Assembly (NCBI RefSeq): GCF_013377085.1
Contig: NZ_JACAAX010000010.1
Span: 1 to 64,000 of the forward strand
Direction: 5' to 3'
Source: Rhodoplanes sp.
GTDB lineage: Bacteria; Pseudomonadota; Alphaproteobacteria; Rhizobiales; Xanthobacteraceae
DNA length: 64,000 nt
Every line of letters starts with the position of its first letter. Position 1 is the stretch's first letter. Positions 50,363 to 54,880 of this stretch are shown piece after piece. A program made the translations under genes and the position numbers. A model generated the notes under the pieces. The model did not search any database and was not told the DNA's origin. It was given only the letters and a program-made list of their open reading frames with translations.

Positions 50363-50761
50363 ATGACCCAGTTGCCGCACGCGCTCAAGCGCATCCGGTT
50401 GAACCTCGCACGCTCGAAAGACTATCCGCTCGGGTCGGCCACCCACGGTTACGAGTTCGTCGCCCCGCTGCGCCCCGACGGCCATATCGATCCCGAGCTG
50501 TGGCGCAAGCAGCGCGAGCACTGCCGGGTGCGCCGCTTCTGGGGCGCCGAGGACGACGAGATCGGCCGCCTCGTGCACAAGCCGGGCGGTCCGGAGCACG
50601 CCCGCTGGGTGTTCGACTACGACGAGACCGCCGAGGACGACGACGAGGCCGGCTACCGGTTCGGCGCCCACGCCTTCCTGCCGGGTGAATACGTCTCGAT
50701 CCGCGACGAGGACGGCGAGATGCGCACCTTCCAGGTCGTCACGGTCGAGCCGGCGACCTGA
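50363..50761 (+). CDS. Conserved hypothetical acidic protein
   Basis: A 132-residue soluble protein that I cannot assign to a named family. It starts with a basic helix (LKRIRLNLARSKDYP), then THGYEFVAPL, and has an acidic stretch (DYDETAEDDDEAGY) and a C-terminal beta-rich portion (PGEYVSIRDEDGEMRTFQVV). The ribosome site AGAGGAGG is strong. The likely FixK-type box 90-103 bases upstream and the divergent DosR-type kinase-like gene suggest expression under low oxygen; the role itself is unknown. Confidence 0.75.
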   Translation: MTQLPHALKRIRLNLARSKDYPLGSATHGYEFVAPLRPDGHIDPELWRKQREHCRVRRFWGAEDDEIGRLVHKPGGPEHARWVFDYDETAEDDDEAGYRFGAHAFLPGEYVSIRDEDGEMRTFQVVTVEPAT

Positions 50762-50819
50762 GGCGGCTCGGCCGCCGCGCGCCGACGCGGCGTGACGGCG
50801 GTTCAAGTTTTCGGCCCTT

Positions 50820-50846
50820 TGTCGGGTTCGGCTAGGCTCAGCCGTC
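50820..50846 (+). promoter_or_regulatory. Putative ECF42-type promoter of the YciI-sigma operon
   Basis: TGTCGG, a 17-base spacer, then CGTC, ending 25 bases before the YciI start. It is close to the TGTCGA / CGTC elements reported for ECF42 sigma factors. An identical element with the same spacing precedes the SRPBCC operon at 52588. Confidence 0.6.
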
Positions 50847-50871
50847 CTTGGTCCGCCAAAGGAACCGAAAA

Positions 50872-51264
50872 ATGCTCTACGCCATCCTGTGCTACCACCA
50901 AGAGGACGTCGTCTGCTCCTGGAGCAAGGAGGAGGACGACGCCGTCATGCAGAAGCTCGCCGTCATCCAGGAGCGGCTCGCCCGCGAGGGCCGGCTCGGG
51001 CCGGTGGCGCGCCTGATGCCGACCACGGCGGCGACCACGCTGCGCAAGGACCGCGAGCCGCCGCTGGTCATCGACGGCCCGTTCGCCGAGACCAAGGAAC
51101 AGCTTCTCGGCTTCTACATCGTCGACTGCGGCTCGCTCGACGAGGCGCTGGCCATCGCCAAGGAGCTCGGCCAGGCCAATCCGGGCGGCTCCTACGAGCT
51201 GCGGCCGGTGGCGCTGTTCAACCCCGCCGGTGCGCCGGCCACACCCGCATCCGCGGGCGCATGA
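50872..51264 (+). CDS. YciI/DGPF-domain protein
   Basis: A 130-residue protein of the YciI-like (DGPF) family. It starts MLYAILCYHQEDVV and contains the naming motif as DGPFAETKEQLLGFYIVD, then the C-terminal EVRPV-like LRPVALF. The fold is a ferredoxin-like dimer of unknown activity. It overlaps the sigma-factor start (ATGA), so the two are coupled. DGPF proteins are the regular partners and targets of ECF42 sigma factors. AAGGAA precedes the ATG at 50872. Confidence 0.9.
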   Translation: MLYAILCYHQEDVVCSWSKEEDDAVMQKLAVIQERLAREGRLGPVARLMPTTAATTLRKDREPPLVIDGPFAETKEQLLGFYIVDCGSLDEALAIAKELGQANPGGSYELRPVALFNPAGAPATPASAGA

Positions 51265-52571
51265 TGGATGTCGACTGGATCGGCGCCACCCTGACGGCGG
51301 CGCGCCCGCAGGCGCTCGCCGCGCTCTTGCGCGCGTTCCGGGATCTCGACATGGCCGAGGAGGCCCTGCAGGAGGCGTGCCTCCGTGCTCTCAGGACGTG
51401 GCCCCAAAATGGTCCGCCGCGCGACGCCGCCGCCTGGCTCATCATGGTCGGCCGCAATGTGGCGATCGACACGGTGCGGCGCCGGCGCCGCGAGGCACCA
51501 CTGCCCGACGAGGAGGTCTTGTCCGAGCGCGACGACGCCGAGTCGGCGCTCGCCGAGGAGCTCGACGAGAGCCACTATCGCGACGACATCTTGAGGCTGC
51601 TGTTCGTCTGCTGCCATCCCGATCTGCCGGATGCCCAGCAGATCGCGCTGGCGCTGCGCATCGTCTCGGGTCTCTCGGTCAAGGAGATCGCCCGCGCGTT
51701 CCTGGTCGGCGAAAGCGCCATGGAGCAGCGCCTCACCCGCGCCAAGCGCAAGGTGGCGAGCGCCGACGTGCCGTTCGAGGCGCCGAGCCCGCCGGAGCGC
51801 GCCGCCCGCGTCGCCACCGTGATGGCGGCGATCTATCTCGTGTTCAACGAAGGCTATGCGGCGAGCGGCGGCGACGCCCATCTGCGCCTGCCGCTGTGCG
51901 AGGAGGCGATCCGGCTCGCCCGCCTGCTGCTGCGGCTGTTCCCGACCGAGCCGGAGATCATGGGGCTTTCGGCGCTGCTGCTGCTCCAGCATTCGCGCGC
52001 CGCGGCACGACTCGACGCCGACGGCGACATCGTGCTGCTCGACGACCAGGACCGCGGCCGCTGGGACGGCCGGCTGATCGCCGAGGGGCTGGCGCTGCTC
52101 GACAAGGCAATGCGGCACCGCCAGCCGGGCCCTTATCAGCTCCAGGCGGCCATCGCGGCCCTGCATGCGCGTGCCAAAAAGCCCGAGGACACCGACTGGG
52201 CCCAGATCGAGCTTCTGTACGGCGCGCTCGAACGGCTGTCGCCCTCGCCCGTGGTGACGCTCAACCGCGCCGTCGCGGTGTGGAAGCAGCGGGGTCCGGC
52301 CGCCGCGCTCGCTCTCATCGCACCATTGCGTGAAACACTCTCGGGCTATTTCTATTTCCACGGCCTCGAAGGCGCGCTGTTGGACAAGCTCGGCCGCACC
52401 GGCGAGGCCAAGGTGGCGCTCGACCGCGCCATCGCGCTCGCCCATTCGCCCGCCGAGGCGGCGCATATCCGCCGCCAGATCGACCGGCTGACGGCGCCGG
52501 GACCAGGCGCCGAGGTGGCCGCGCGCACCGCTGCGGCCGATGCCCCCGCCGCCTCCGATACCACTCGCTGA
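51261..52571 (+). CDS. ECF sigma factor with C-terminal TPR-like extension (ECF42 type)
   Basis: A 436-residue sigma factor, much longer than a standard ECF. Region 2 is seen at AALLRAFRDLDMAEEALQEA and RDAAAWLIMVGRNVAIDTV; region 4 at LRIVSGLSVKEIARAFLVGESAMEQRL. The remaining 250 residues are a DUF6596/TPR-like domain (FNEGYAASGG, EPEIMGLSALLLLQHSRAAAR, GPYQLQAAIAALHA), the hallmark of ECF42. No anti-sigma gene is present, as usual for the group, in which the extension is needed for activity. It probably activates its own operon and the SRPBCC operon. Confidence 0.92.
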   Translation: MMDVDWIGATLTAARPQALAALLRAFRDLDMAEEALQEACLRALRTWPQNGPPRDAAAWLIMVGRNVAIDTVRRRRREAPLPDEEVLSERDDAESALAEELDESHYRDDILRLLFVCCHPDLPDAQQIALALRIVSGLSVKEIARAFLVGESAMEQRLTRAKRKVASADVPFEAPSPPERAARVATVMAAIYLVFNEGYAASGGDAHLRLPLCEEAIRLARLLLRLFPTEPEIMGLSALLLLQHSRAAARLDADGDIVLLDDQDRGRWDGRLIAEGLALLDKAMRHRQPGPYQLQAAIAALHARAKKPEDTDWAQIELLYGALERLSPSPVVTLNRAVAVWKQRGPAAALALIAPLRETLSGYFYFHGLEGALLDKLGRTGEAKVALDRAIALAHSPAEAAHIRRQIDRLTAPGPGAEVAARTAAADAPAASDTTR

Positions 52572-52587
52572 AAATTTTCCGAGTCAC

Positions 52588-52614
52588 TGTCGGAGCCACC
52601 GCTGCCCGTCCGTC
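52588..52614 (+). promoter_or_regulatory. Putative ECF42-type promoter of the SRPBCC / beta-grasp / propeller operon
   Basis: TGTCGG, 17 bases, CGTC, ending 30 bases before the SRPBCC start. The hexamer, tetramer and spacing are the same as at 50820-50846. The gap after the sigma-factor stop is only 73 bases. Confidence 0.6.
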
Positions 52615-52644
52615 TTCAGGACGATCGAGGCAAGGAGGAACCCC

Positions 52645-53229
52645 ATGCTCGAAGGCATCATCATCACGGCGGCCGTGCTGGCAGGCGTCATGGTCGTGGT
52701 CGCGGCCTTTGCTTCGACCAGGCCTGATCACTTCAAGATCGCGCGCTCGACCACCATCGCGGCGCCATCGGCCGCCATCTATCCACTGATCGCCGACCTG
52801 CACCGCTTCAACACTTGGAATCCTTTCGCCCTGAAGGATCCGTACGCCAAGGGCCATTACGAGGGTCCCCCGAACGGCGTCGGCGCCGGCTACGTGTTCG
52901 ACGGCTCCAAGTCCGGCACCGGACGCATCGATGTGGTCGACACGAAACCCGATGCCGCCGTAATCATGCGCCTCCTGATGACCAGGCCGATGGCAGCCGA
53001 CAACCGCATCGCCTTCACGCTGGAGCCGCAGGGCGACGCGACGCGCATCGCGACACGCGTCACCTGGGCCATGGAAGGCGCGGTGCCATTCGTCGGCAAG
53101 CTGGTGTCGCTGGTGCTCGACTGCGAGACGATGGTCGGACCGGACTTCGAGGCCGGCCTCGCCTCGCTCAAGGCGCTCGCCGAAGGGTCCGCGCCCCTCG
53201 GCCCGGGCCGGACCGCGGGCGGAACGTGA
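52645..53229 (+). CDS. SRPBCC-family (polyketide cyclase/START-like) protein with membrane anchor
   Basis: A 194-residue protein. A single N-terminal hydrophobic helix (IIITAAVLAGVMVVVAAFA) is followed by an SRPBCC lipid-binding-type domain: ARSTTIAAPSAAIYPLIADLHRFNTWNPF, then GAGYVFDGSKSGTGR and a long C-terminal helix (VGPDFEAGLASLKALA). Such domains bind hydrophobic ligands. AAGGAGGAA gives a strong start at 52645. It is first in a three-gene run; its stop overlaps the start of the beta-grasp gene (TGATG). Confidence 0.88.
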   Translation: MLEGIIITAAVLAGVMVVVAAFASTRPDHFKIARSTTIAAPSAAIYPLIADLHRFNTWNPFALKDPYAKGHYEGPPNGVGAGYVFDGSKSGTGRIDVVDTKPDAAVIMRLLMTRPMAADNRIAFTLEPQGDATRIATRVTWAMEGAVPFVGKLVSLVLDCETMVGPDFEAGLASLKALAEGSAPLGPGRTAGGT

Positions 53230-53498
53230 TGCCGCGCGTCATCTTCACCCAGAACATCCAGCGCCACGTCGCCTGCCCGGAGACCATGGTCGCCGGCAGC
53301 ACGGTGCGCGAGGCGCTGGAGGCGGTGTTTTCAGAAAACCCGCAGGCGCGCGGCTATGTGCTCGACGACCAGGGCGCACTGCGCCGCCACATGGCCGTGT
53401 TCGTCGACGGCATTTTGGTGCGCGACCGCACGACATTGGCCGAGCCGGTGGCGCCGGCCAGCACCATCCATGTTTTCCAGGCACTCTCCGGAGGATGA
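53229..53498 (+). CDS. MoaD/ThiS-like beta-grasp protein ending in Gly-Gly
   Basis: An 89-residue ubiquitin-like fold protein. It has the MoaD/ThiS pattern: a first strand VIFTQNIQRHV, the helix TVREALEAVFSENPQARGYV, then MAVFVDGILVRD and a final strand IHVFQALSGG. The terminal Gly-Gly is the feature needed for adenylation and thiocarboxylation or conjugation. No MoaE, ThiF or E1-like gene is present in the window. It overlaps the SRPBCC gene by one base and is one base from the propeller gene. Confidence 0.88.
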   Translation: MPRVIFTQNIQRHVACPETMVAGSTVREALEAVFSENPQARGYVLDDQGALRRHMAVFVDGILVRDRTTLAEPVAPASTIHVFQALSGG

Positions 53499-53499
53499 C

Positions 53500-54600
53500 A
53501 TGAGCGACACGCTGCTCGTCTCGACCCGCAAGGGGCTGTTCACGGTTCTGCGCGACGGCACCCGGTGGGACATCGCCAAGGCCGACTTCCTCGGCGACAA
53601 CGTCACGCTGACCGTGATGGACCCGCGCGACGGCCGGCGCTACGCCGCGCTCGACCACGGCCATTTCGGCGTCAAGCTGCACCGCTCGACGGCGACCGGC
53701 TGGGAGGAGATCGCGACGCCGGCCTATCCGGAGAAACCGGCCGGCCTCGAGGAGAACGACATGTGGGGCCGGCCGCTGCCGTGGAGCACGGTGCGGATCT
53801 GGGCGCTCACGCCGGGCGGCACCGAGGAGCCCGGCACCATCTGGTGCGGCACGCTGCCGGGTGGCCTGTTCAAATCGACCGACCACGGCGAGAGCTGGTC
53901 GCTCGTGCGCGCGCTGTGGGACCATCCCAAGCGGCCGCAGTGGATGGGCGGCGGTGCCGATCTCCCGGGCCTGCATTCGGTCTGCGTCGATCCGCGCAAC
54001 TCGCGCCATGTCAGCATCGCCGTGTCGACCGGCGGCGTGTGGCACACCGCCGACGGCGGCGAGACCTGGAGCCAGCGCGGCGAGGGCATGCGGGCCGACC
54101 ACGTGCCGCCCGAGCTGACGCACGATCCGATCGCCCAGGACGTCCACTGTCTCGTCCAGTGCCAGGCCGCGCCGGAGCGCATGTGGGTGCAGCACCACAA
54201 CGGCATCTTCGTCTCCTCCGACGCCGGCCGCAGCTTCACGGAGATTCCGTCCGCCGGCCCGTCGACCTTCGGGTTTCCGGTCGCCGTGCATCCGGAGGAG
54301 CCCGACACGGCGTGGTTCGTGCCGGAGATCAAGGACGAGAAGCGCATCCCCTGCGACGGCCGGCTGGTGGTCACCCGCACGCGCGATGGCGGCAAGAGCT
54401 TCGAGGTGCTGACCCGTGGCCTGCCGGATCGCCACGCCTACGACGTCGTCTACCGCCACGCGCTGGCGCTCGACCCGGCCGGCGAGCGCCTCGCCTTCGG
54501 CTCCACCACGGGCGGCCTGTGGGTGAGCGAGAACCAGGGCGACGCCTGGACCTGCGTCACCCACACGCTGCCGCCCGTCTACGCGGTGCGGTTCGGCTGA
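53500..54600 (+). CDS. Asp-box (BNR) beta-propeller, sialidase-like protein
   Basis: A 366-residue propeller. At least five Asp-box turns (S/T-x-D-x-G-x-x-W/F) are visible: STDHGESW, TADGGETW, SSDAGRSF, TRDGGKSF and SENQGDAW. It lacks the Arg triad and FRIP motif that would make it a true sialidase, and has no signal peptide, so it is likely a cytoplasmic binding scaffold. It follows the beta-grasp gene by a single base; MoaD-like plus Asp-box pairs also occur in other bacterial phyla, which argues for a joint function. Confidence 0.87.
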   Translation: MSDTLLVSTRKGLFTVLRDGTRWDIAKADFLGDNVTLTVMDPRDGRRYAALDHGHFGVKLHRSTATGWEEIATPAYPEKPAGLEENDMWGRPLPWSTVRIWALTPGGTEEPGTIWCGTLPGGLFKSTDHGESWSLVRALWDHPKRPQWMGGGADLPGLHSVCVDPRNSRHVSIAVSTGGVWHTADGGETWSQRGEGMRADHVPPELTHDPIAQDVHCLVQCQAAPERMWVQHHNGIFVSSDAGRSFTEIPSAGPSTFGFPVAVHPEEPDTAWFVPEIKDEKRIPCDGRLVVTRTRDGGKSFEVLTRGLPDRHAYDVVYRHALALDPAGERLAFGSTTGGLWVSENQGDAWTCVTHTLPPVYAVRFG

Positions 54601-54640
54601 CCCCAGGTCAGCCCCGGCACGCAGAGCAGCCTTCGTGGTT

Positions 54641-54745
54641 CCCTCCCCCCTTGTGGGGGAGCGACAGGGAGGGGGGTGAGCCGCGCGCGCTTTCGGTTGG
54701 GGCTACCCCCCTCCCCAACTCTCCCCCACAAGGGGGGGAGGGAGA
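54641..54745. repeat. Extragenic palindromic repeat, family D copy 3
   Basis: Inverted repeat with CCCTCCCCCCTTGTGGGGGAG and CTCCCCCACAAGGGGGGGAG arms and an inner GGGAGGGGGGTGAG / CCCCCCTCCCC pair. It lies after the propeller gene and may end that operon's transcript. Confidence 0.75.
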
Positions 54746-54880
54746 GTCGGCGCCGCGGCTCCCACCTTTTGCCTCCCTCCGCCTCGCGGCCCTTGCCTGA
54801 CACCGCCCCTTCCCGCCGCCGCTTTCGGCTGTGCTAAGATGCCGTCGAACAACGCGGCACCAGCCCGGGGACAGGCACAG

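Follow-up and report, generated by a model that had tools for sequence, protein, structure and literature searches.

The sigma factors of extracytoplasmic function (ECF) group ECF42 combine the sigma2 and sigma4 domains with a long, TPR-rich C-terminal extension of ~200 amino acids (aa), according to PMC8999054, and the closest described system to the one considered in this work is RpoE10, the ECF42 sigma factor of Sinorhizobium meliloti. Table 1 of PMC6180224 prints the sequences preceding SMb20475, SMc01151 (YciI), and SMc01149, and all three contain TGTCGG-N17-CGTC, with the spacing counted by eye; two of the RpoE10-type sites have start sites downstream, and both of these operons rise on RpoE10 overexpression. 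SMc01149-SMc01148, whose gene number adjoins rpoE10, is among those that rise, and control of ligand-binding-domain and glyoxalase-like genes by an ECF42 sigma factor is already known from the same source. Here, we consider a stretch of 64,000 nucleotides from Rhodoplanes sp. (contig NZ_JACAAX010000010.1, positions 1 to 64,000; order Rhizobiales of the Alphaproteobacteria), referred to below as the window, in which a YciI gene and the gene for an ECF42-type sigma factor are followed by an operon encoding an SRPBCC protein, a ubiquitin-like protein of the ThiS/MoaD type, and an Asp-box beta-propeller, the last two being called the pair. Our results make it highly probable that this sigma factor would govern a small ECF42 regulon that includes the SRPBCC-ubiquitin-like-propeller operon.

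A candidate ECF42 promoter before two consecutive operons

The original prediction, made from the sequence of the window, had placed copies of TGTCGG-N17-CGTC at 50820-50846 and 52588-52614, each 25-30 bases before a start codon, and both copies are found there on the + strand, 25 bases before the YciI ATG (50872) and 30 before the SRPBCC ATG (52645). The gene content that it had assigned agrees with Pfam and profile matches (YciI, ECF sigma, SRPBCC, ThiS family, and propeller; Table 1). The likeness to RpoE10 begins with the YciI-sigma operon, and it extends to the targets: S. meliloti has TGTCGG-N17-CGTC at three operons, the one adjoining rpoE10 by number being led by a gene with a hydrophobic-ligand-binding domain and another target being glyoxalase-like (PMC6180224), while the genome of the window has three, perhaps four, sites of an extended motif with gene types similar to those of the RpoE10 targets. 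Since a ligand-binding-domain gene is a known target there, ECF42 control of an SRPBCC-like protein has a precedent. The two systems differ in what comes after the ligand-binding gene, which is a glyoxalase-like gene in S. meliloti but the ubiquitin-like gene and the propeller gene in the window, and in that transcriptome and start-site data exist for the S. meliloti regulon, whereas the window is known from computation only.

A promoter of the same kind is frequent upstream of ECF42 genes. Of 40 regions taken 5' of these genes, 30 contain TGTCG[GA]-N17-CG[TA]C, and no other spacing between 12 and 22 occurs in more than 3; the 40 regions are 20 at class level (20 of 22 holders, with one ECF42 gene taken per genome, though some genomes have several) and 20 at order level chosen by us. 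The own-operon promoter, TGTCG[GA] and CG[TA]C at this fixed spacing, is likewise present in the sequence of the window YciI-sigma operon, and these observations support the candidacy of TGTCGG-N17-CGTC as an ECF42 promoter. Two flavours of promoter can be distinguished among the ECF42 upstream regions (L242-L281), TGTCGG/CGTC[CT]T mostly with sigma factors near that of the window and TGTCGA/CG[TA]C mostly with more distant ones. Five sigma factors close to that of the window have no upstream match, namely those of L247 (a region cut short), L263, L268, L278, and L280.

How much weight the motif can bear depends on its frequency. A third match in the window lies at 1610 (-), within long frames, and since shuffled windows contain a mean of 0.47 matches, with 3 or more in 3 of 100 shuffles, counting in the window is by itself only mildly significant. 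In the whole genome (6.48 Mb), the N17 pattern matches 29 times and its reverse 10 times. Because 21 of the 29 sit under frames of >150 codons with high G+C at third codon positions, the 6 + 4 bases alone are not diagnostic; the second promoter site is itself one of these 21, owing to an in-frame ATG further upstream in the SRPBCC frame. The genome scan that the original prediction had proposed as a check shows the extended form, CGTC[CT]T, to be rare, as it is present at 4 of the 29 sites: those of the YciI-sigma and SRPBCC operons, one before a VOC gene, and one that is uncertain. Pooling N16-18 gives 269 genome matches, of which the 240 from N16 and N18 are not counted as evidence for the motif. 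The significance of the motif thus comes from its presence before two consecutive operons, this extension, the agreement with RpoE10, and the recurrence of the N17 site at orthologous operons. That the motif arose by chance in a genome rich in G+C was considered and is ruled out by the spacing, extension, and reversed-pattern controls.

The site before the VOC gene is a predicted third promoter of the ECF42 sigma factor. It lies on contig 24 at 57158 (L230 1501-2047), 100 bases 5' of a single VOC/PhnB-like gene whose family was assigned by eye. The uncertain fourth site (L231) is 87 bases 5' of a gene that, again by eye, resembles an alpha/beta hydrolase.

Recurrence of the site at orthologous operons

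The search for propeller relatives covered 120 relatives, 385 genomes of the class, and 397 genomes of the order, and ECF42 was sought in the same sets, a match to PF20239 being taken as its presence; neighbouring ECF42 and YciI genes at the loci were called with profiles built from window-like proteins, which distant ones may escape. The class-level regions comprise 55 propellers with E values up to about 1e-80 (the window and G112 apart), weaker matches falling outside the set. Among the first 21 order-level loci, the window included, the N17 site is present 5' of the pair in 13 within a search range of 2.2 kb, while other spacings from 10 to 24 are found in 0-3 and an antisense N17 site in 1. 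At 63 further order-level loci, the site is present in 21, other spacings in 0-3, and the antisense site in 0. The comparison of orthologous upstream regions that had been suggested with the original prediction thus finds the site at many operons, though not at every one. Neither the genome scan nor this comparison refutes the prediction.

The site is tied to the presence of the sigma factor. Genomes with ECF42 have it at 11/13 and 21/41 loci in the first and second order-level sets, respectively, compared with 2/8 and 0/22 for genomes without. The pooled figures, 32/54 versus 2/30, give a Fisher P value of 1.5e-6, and the second set alone (21/41 versus 0/22) gives 1.2e-5, both ignoring relatedness. 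The two bases after CGTC, which were outside the search pattern, read CT or TT at 33 of the 34 sites before the pair, against a background of 8.5% after CGTC over the fetched loci, the match nearest to the pair being taken where a locus had several. The 34 site-bearing loci are related and so do not amount to 34 independent events; on the protein tree, the site trait requires at least 14 changes over 84 rows, and within the order the site appears in three branches that split deep in the propeller tree, with one further occurrence in another order (L126). An ECF42 gene lies beside the pair, within the fetched stretch, at 7/21 and 8/63 order-level loci, and also in L129 and, outside the order and together with the site, in L126. 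In L173 (the gammaproteobacterium Lysobacter maris), ECF42 and YciI genes lie on the opposite strand ~0.6-3 kb 5' of the propeller gene, and TGTCGG-N17-CGTC is absent there.

These data bear on the alternative that the second motif of the window is fortuitous, with transcription of the operon either reading through from the YciI-sigma promoter or starting at an unrecognised one. A fortuitous match would be in keeping with the 29 genome occurrences of the bare pattern and the 21 of them under long frames, but not with an extension that all but one of the 34 sites retain. Likewise, the gap of 73 bases on the same strand, in which a consensus scan finds no terminator-like site, would let read-through occur in the window, but the N17 site also precedes orthologous operons at loci whose fetched stretch contains no ECF42 gene (L056, L062, L064, L065, L068, and L072, as well as L285-L287, L289, L294, L297, L299, L300, L312, and others), where read-through from a sigma operon is not on offer. 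We consider this alternative very improbable, and read-through in addition to initiation at the second site would not contradict ECF42 control of the operon.

The arrangement of the genes around the site varies. The order YciI-ECF42-site-genes-ubiquitin-like-propeller is shared by the window, L054, L055, L057, L058, and L129, and YciI-ECF42-site-gene-propeller-ubiquitin-like is found in L284, L288, L309, and L311, with SRPBCC as the intervening gene in L291 and L306. In L063 and L066, the site, a VOC gene, the propeller gene, the ubiquitin-like gene, YciI, and ECF42 follow one another in a single row, and L283 has a divergent arrangement. Ten proteins encoded between the site and the pair at six loci are of the DUF1428, YCII, or glyoxalase/VOC types.

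Genes and other features of the locus

Table 1. Predicted promoters and genes of the two operons, with positions in the window
Feature	Position	Strand	Basis
ECF42-type promoter TGTCGG-N17-CGTCCT, before YciI-sigma operon	50820..50848	+	predicted; motif search and S. meliloti likeness
YciI/DGPF-type protein, 130 aa	50872..51264	+	Pfam PF03795, 8.1e-22
ECF42-type sigma factor, 436 aa; sigma2, sigma4, C-terminal DUF6596 (PF20239)	51261..52571 (start 51261 or 51264)	+	
ECF42-type promoter TGTCGG-N17-CGTCTT, 73-base gap 3' of sigma gene	52588..52616	+	predicted
SRPBCC / Polyketide_cyc2 protein, 194 aa, leads target operon	52645..53229	+	PF10604, 3.3e-11
Ubiquitin-like (ThiS/MoaD-type) protein, 89 aa, C-terminus ...ALSGG	53229..53498	+	PF02597, 4.6e-6, above cut-off
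Asp-box beta-propeller, 366 aa, homologue of PDB 3b7f	53500..54600	+	profile, model, Foldseek

The YciI gene (50872-51264) is directly 5' of the sigma gene and overlaps its start. The sigma factor matches Sigma70_r2, Sigma70_r4_2, and DUF6596 above the Pfam cut-offs and continues for ~270 aa beyond sigma4, with no Pfam TPR model among its matches; its YciI partner, its C-terminal DUF6596, and the motif support its assignment as an ECF42-type factor. No anti-sigma gene appears in the Pfam matches of the scanned neighbours of the sigma gene, the gene at 50363-50761 having no match above the cut-off, and a consensus scan of 50700-54850 finds no sigma-70-like promoter. The SRPBCC start at 52645 is our choice and is backed by a preceding AAGGAGG; the alternative in-frame ATG, at 52540, is upstream of the second site and would place that site within the reading frame. 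Directly after the propeller gene, a large GC-rich inverted repeat (54640-54743) with 33-nt arms that are 88% complementary looks like a palindromic element or a terminator.

Limits of ECF42 control

Several findings weigh against ECF42 control of the pair or restrict how far it can extend. Outside the order, the site is present at the pair in only 1 of the 55 class-level loci, though 22 have ECF42; counted by holders of ECF42, it is absent in 22/54 at order level and 21/22 at class level, and at least five of the site-less class-level holders have TGTCGG-N17-CGTC 5' of their own ECF42 gene (L245 and L250-L253). At 80 named loci, the best 80 of 566 confirmed relatives, picked for similarity to the window, the sense N17 site is present once, and the relaxed TGTCG[AG]-N17-CG[AT]C is present in 5, which is not above other spacings (up to 7). 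In some genomes, the site at the pair and the sigma factor or its own promoter do not go together: no ECF42 was detected in G013 (99% complete) or G052 (79%), both of which have the site, G055 has the site at the pair (L072) but no match upstream of its ECF42 gene (L263), and L283, L291, L292, and L306 have it with no exact match 5' of YciI-ECF42. The site of L320, the sole one that lacks the CT/TT extension, is probably a chance match, and independent pairs on the tree, with a mean of 2.9 in the same direction and 0.0 in the opposite one, are too few for significance. From S. meliloti, the YciI-rpoE10 operon does not rise on RpoE10 overexpression, and the SMc01151 motif overlaps the putative start (PMC6180224). 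In the printed sequences, CGTC is followed by CT at SMc01149 but by AT at SMb20475, and owing to this CGTCAT the extension has an exception. The class-level and named loci rule out that ECF42 controls the pair in general. The scarcity of the site outside the order, despite the promoters before the ECF42 genes there, marks ECF42 control of the pair as a lineage habit rather than a rule.

The site in G013 also suits a different explanation, that the promoter is a real ECF promoter used mainly by another sigma factor of overlapping specificity, and other ECF groups share a CGTC -10 element, as seen for the RpoE4 promoter in PMC6180224. We nevertheless judge this explanation to have little probability, as TGTCGG with N17 precedes many ECF42 genes themselves, the site before the pair is found almost only in holders of ECF42, and ECF42 and the pair are often neighbours.

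ECF42 control therefore continues to be the preferred reading for the window: the motif, with its spacing and its extension, recurs at orthologous operons, is in register, is kept at orthologues in part of the order, and is tied to the presence of the sigma factor. The proposed extension of the regulon to the ubiquitin-like/propeller operon is well supported by the recurrence of the site, the co-occurrence with ECF42, and the two bases after CGTC, but holds for a limited lineage, and the SRPBCC-ubiquitin-like-propeller operon of the window very probably belongs to the ECF42 regulon. In the mechanism that we propose, the ECF42 sigma factor (51261-52571) would direct RNA polymerase to TGTCGG-N17-CGTC[CT]T promoters and would initiate at both sites of the window, the predicted targets being its own YciI-sigma operon, the adjacent SRPBCC-ubiquitin-like-propeller operon, and the VOC-family gene elsewhere in the genome. 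Its C-terminal extension may set the activity of the sigma factor by way of a protein partner, a mode of action that has been proposed for ECF42 in the literature.

The ubiquitin-like protein and the propeller

The pairing of the two genes reaches well beyond ECF42. In the first sets, the ubiquitin-like gene is near the propeller gene and on the same strand in 148 of 156 loci, before it in 116 and after it in 32, with gaps of up to 767 bases, mostly <100; there are no natural fusions of the two proteins in these 156 loci. All 80 named loci have the pair, and their titles cover Proteobacteria, Planctomycetota, Acidobacteria, Verrucomicrobia, and others. At the 63 further order-level loci, a profile detects the ubiquitin-like gene in 43, and another 3 have it in the form of a divergent frame that ends in GG; it was not found in 17, one of them at a contig edge, and the site is absent in all 17. 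All 34 site-bearing loci have the ubiquitin-like gene, two in divergent form. The pair would be a widespread and mostly independent two-gene module that came under ECF42 control in several family branches, chiefly in this order. Propellers with neither a neighbouring ubiquitin-like gene nor the sigma site fall in three branches of the tree (L322-L325, L327-L329, L333, L334, and L339; L305, L310, L316, and L317; L313 and L314). In L301, L302, and L303, the ubiquitin-like partner ends in TAMIG, not GG, and the site is absent though the genomes have ECF42.

The window propeller, modelled with a predicted local distance difference test (pLDDT) score of 93.5, is by its modelled fold and full-length homology a 3b7f-type Asp-box beta-propeller. 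PDB 3b7f (Reut_B4987 of Ralstonia eutropha JMP134) is a full-length homologue with a hidden Markov model (HMM) E value of 2e-78, a Foldseek template modelling (TM) score of 0.86, and 33% identity; at the level of Pfam, there is a Sortilin-Vps10-type match, and the BNR/Asp-box matches fall under the cut-off. The residues K11, H216, Q231, H233, R282, and R319 are identical in 153/153 propellers, counted over matches of >300 aa (153 of 156). By the strand order of the model, several invariant residues precede the first strands or sit in second-third strand turns, a placement that would face one side of the propeller, and the invariant residues may form one pocket. 3b7f carries the PDB title 'putative glycosyl hydrolase', and a table of PMC2716378 lists its family as 'Not known'. 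Filing the propeller as a glycosyl hydrolase was rejected, as it reaches 57.9 bits with the F510_1955 glycosylhydrolase model (NF045728) against a cut-off of 175.

The window ubiquitin-like protein shares with ThiS/MoaD carriers a ThiS-family match above the Pfam cut-off and a GG end, and it has weak matches to PDB 1v8c (9e-4) and to SAMP1 structures such as 3po0 (0.19). Unlike ThiS, MoaD, and SAMP1 members, it is paired with a propeller gene. The partners of known ThiS/MoaD/SAMP members are MoaE, ThiG, and conjugation partners. Identity as SAMP1 (NF041918) was rejected at 42.1 bits against a curated cut-off of 60.

The suggestion, made with the original prediction, that the operon is a protein-modification module found no support, as the neighbour families shown include none that serves conjugation, and the sole E1-like gene of the genome is unlinked. 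That the pair is a ubiquitin-like protein-conjugation system switched on by ECF42 would fit the ThiS family, a GG end conserved in 140/148 loci of the first sets and 40/43 of the further order-level loci, and the weak SAMP1 similarity, which itself falls short of the SAMP1 cut-off. E1, E2, and JAB are absent from the window operon and from the 25 of 54 neighbour families displayed, which derive from 66 neighbours, with E2 and JAB not searched for genome-wide; these 66, of 184, are the nearest same-strand frames of <=600 aa by a crude longest-frame rule, with order-level loci excluded. The genome has one E1-like (ThiF-family) gene, which by eye looks MoeB-like and is unlinked to the pair. A dedicated conjugation system is made less likely by this single unlinked gene and by the neighbour families shown, and we regard it as unlikely. 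A more economical guess, offered tentatively, is that the ubiquitin-like protein and the propeller are partners in a sulfur-carrier-like or tail-binding relationship. It is possible, at a similarly modest level of confidence, that the GG tail is activated by a housekeeping E1-like enzyme and that the propeller is a partner enzyme or receptor acting through the invariant Lys/His/Gln/His/Arg/Arg set. Somewhat more doubtful is the fuller proposal that the pair is a widespread, undescribed two-part enzyme in which the propeller (K/H/Q/H/R/R) receives the tail of the small protein once E1 has activated it (by thiocarboxylation or adenylation), and which in this order may be part of an ECF42 response beside YciI, SRPBCC, and VOC proteins.

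Implications

Neither the pair nor its ECF42 control was found in the literature searched, a blunt search in that 'ThiS' terms partly matched the word 'this', and in the survey of prokaryotic ubiquitin relatives PMC1779556, a word search finds no WD40, Vps10, propeller, BNR, or YVTN. Provisionally, both the pair and its control by ECF42 appear to be new. The finding draws attention to a ubiquitin-like protein and a propeller that are conserved together, and the chemistry of the pair is directly testable, since a homologue (3b7f) has been solved and the invariant residues are few. Few targets of ECF42, a widespread group, have been studied, and its signal is not named in the parts of the literature searched; a target module that stands beside ECF42 and in trans across many genera would offer a concrete readout for this group of sigma factors.

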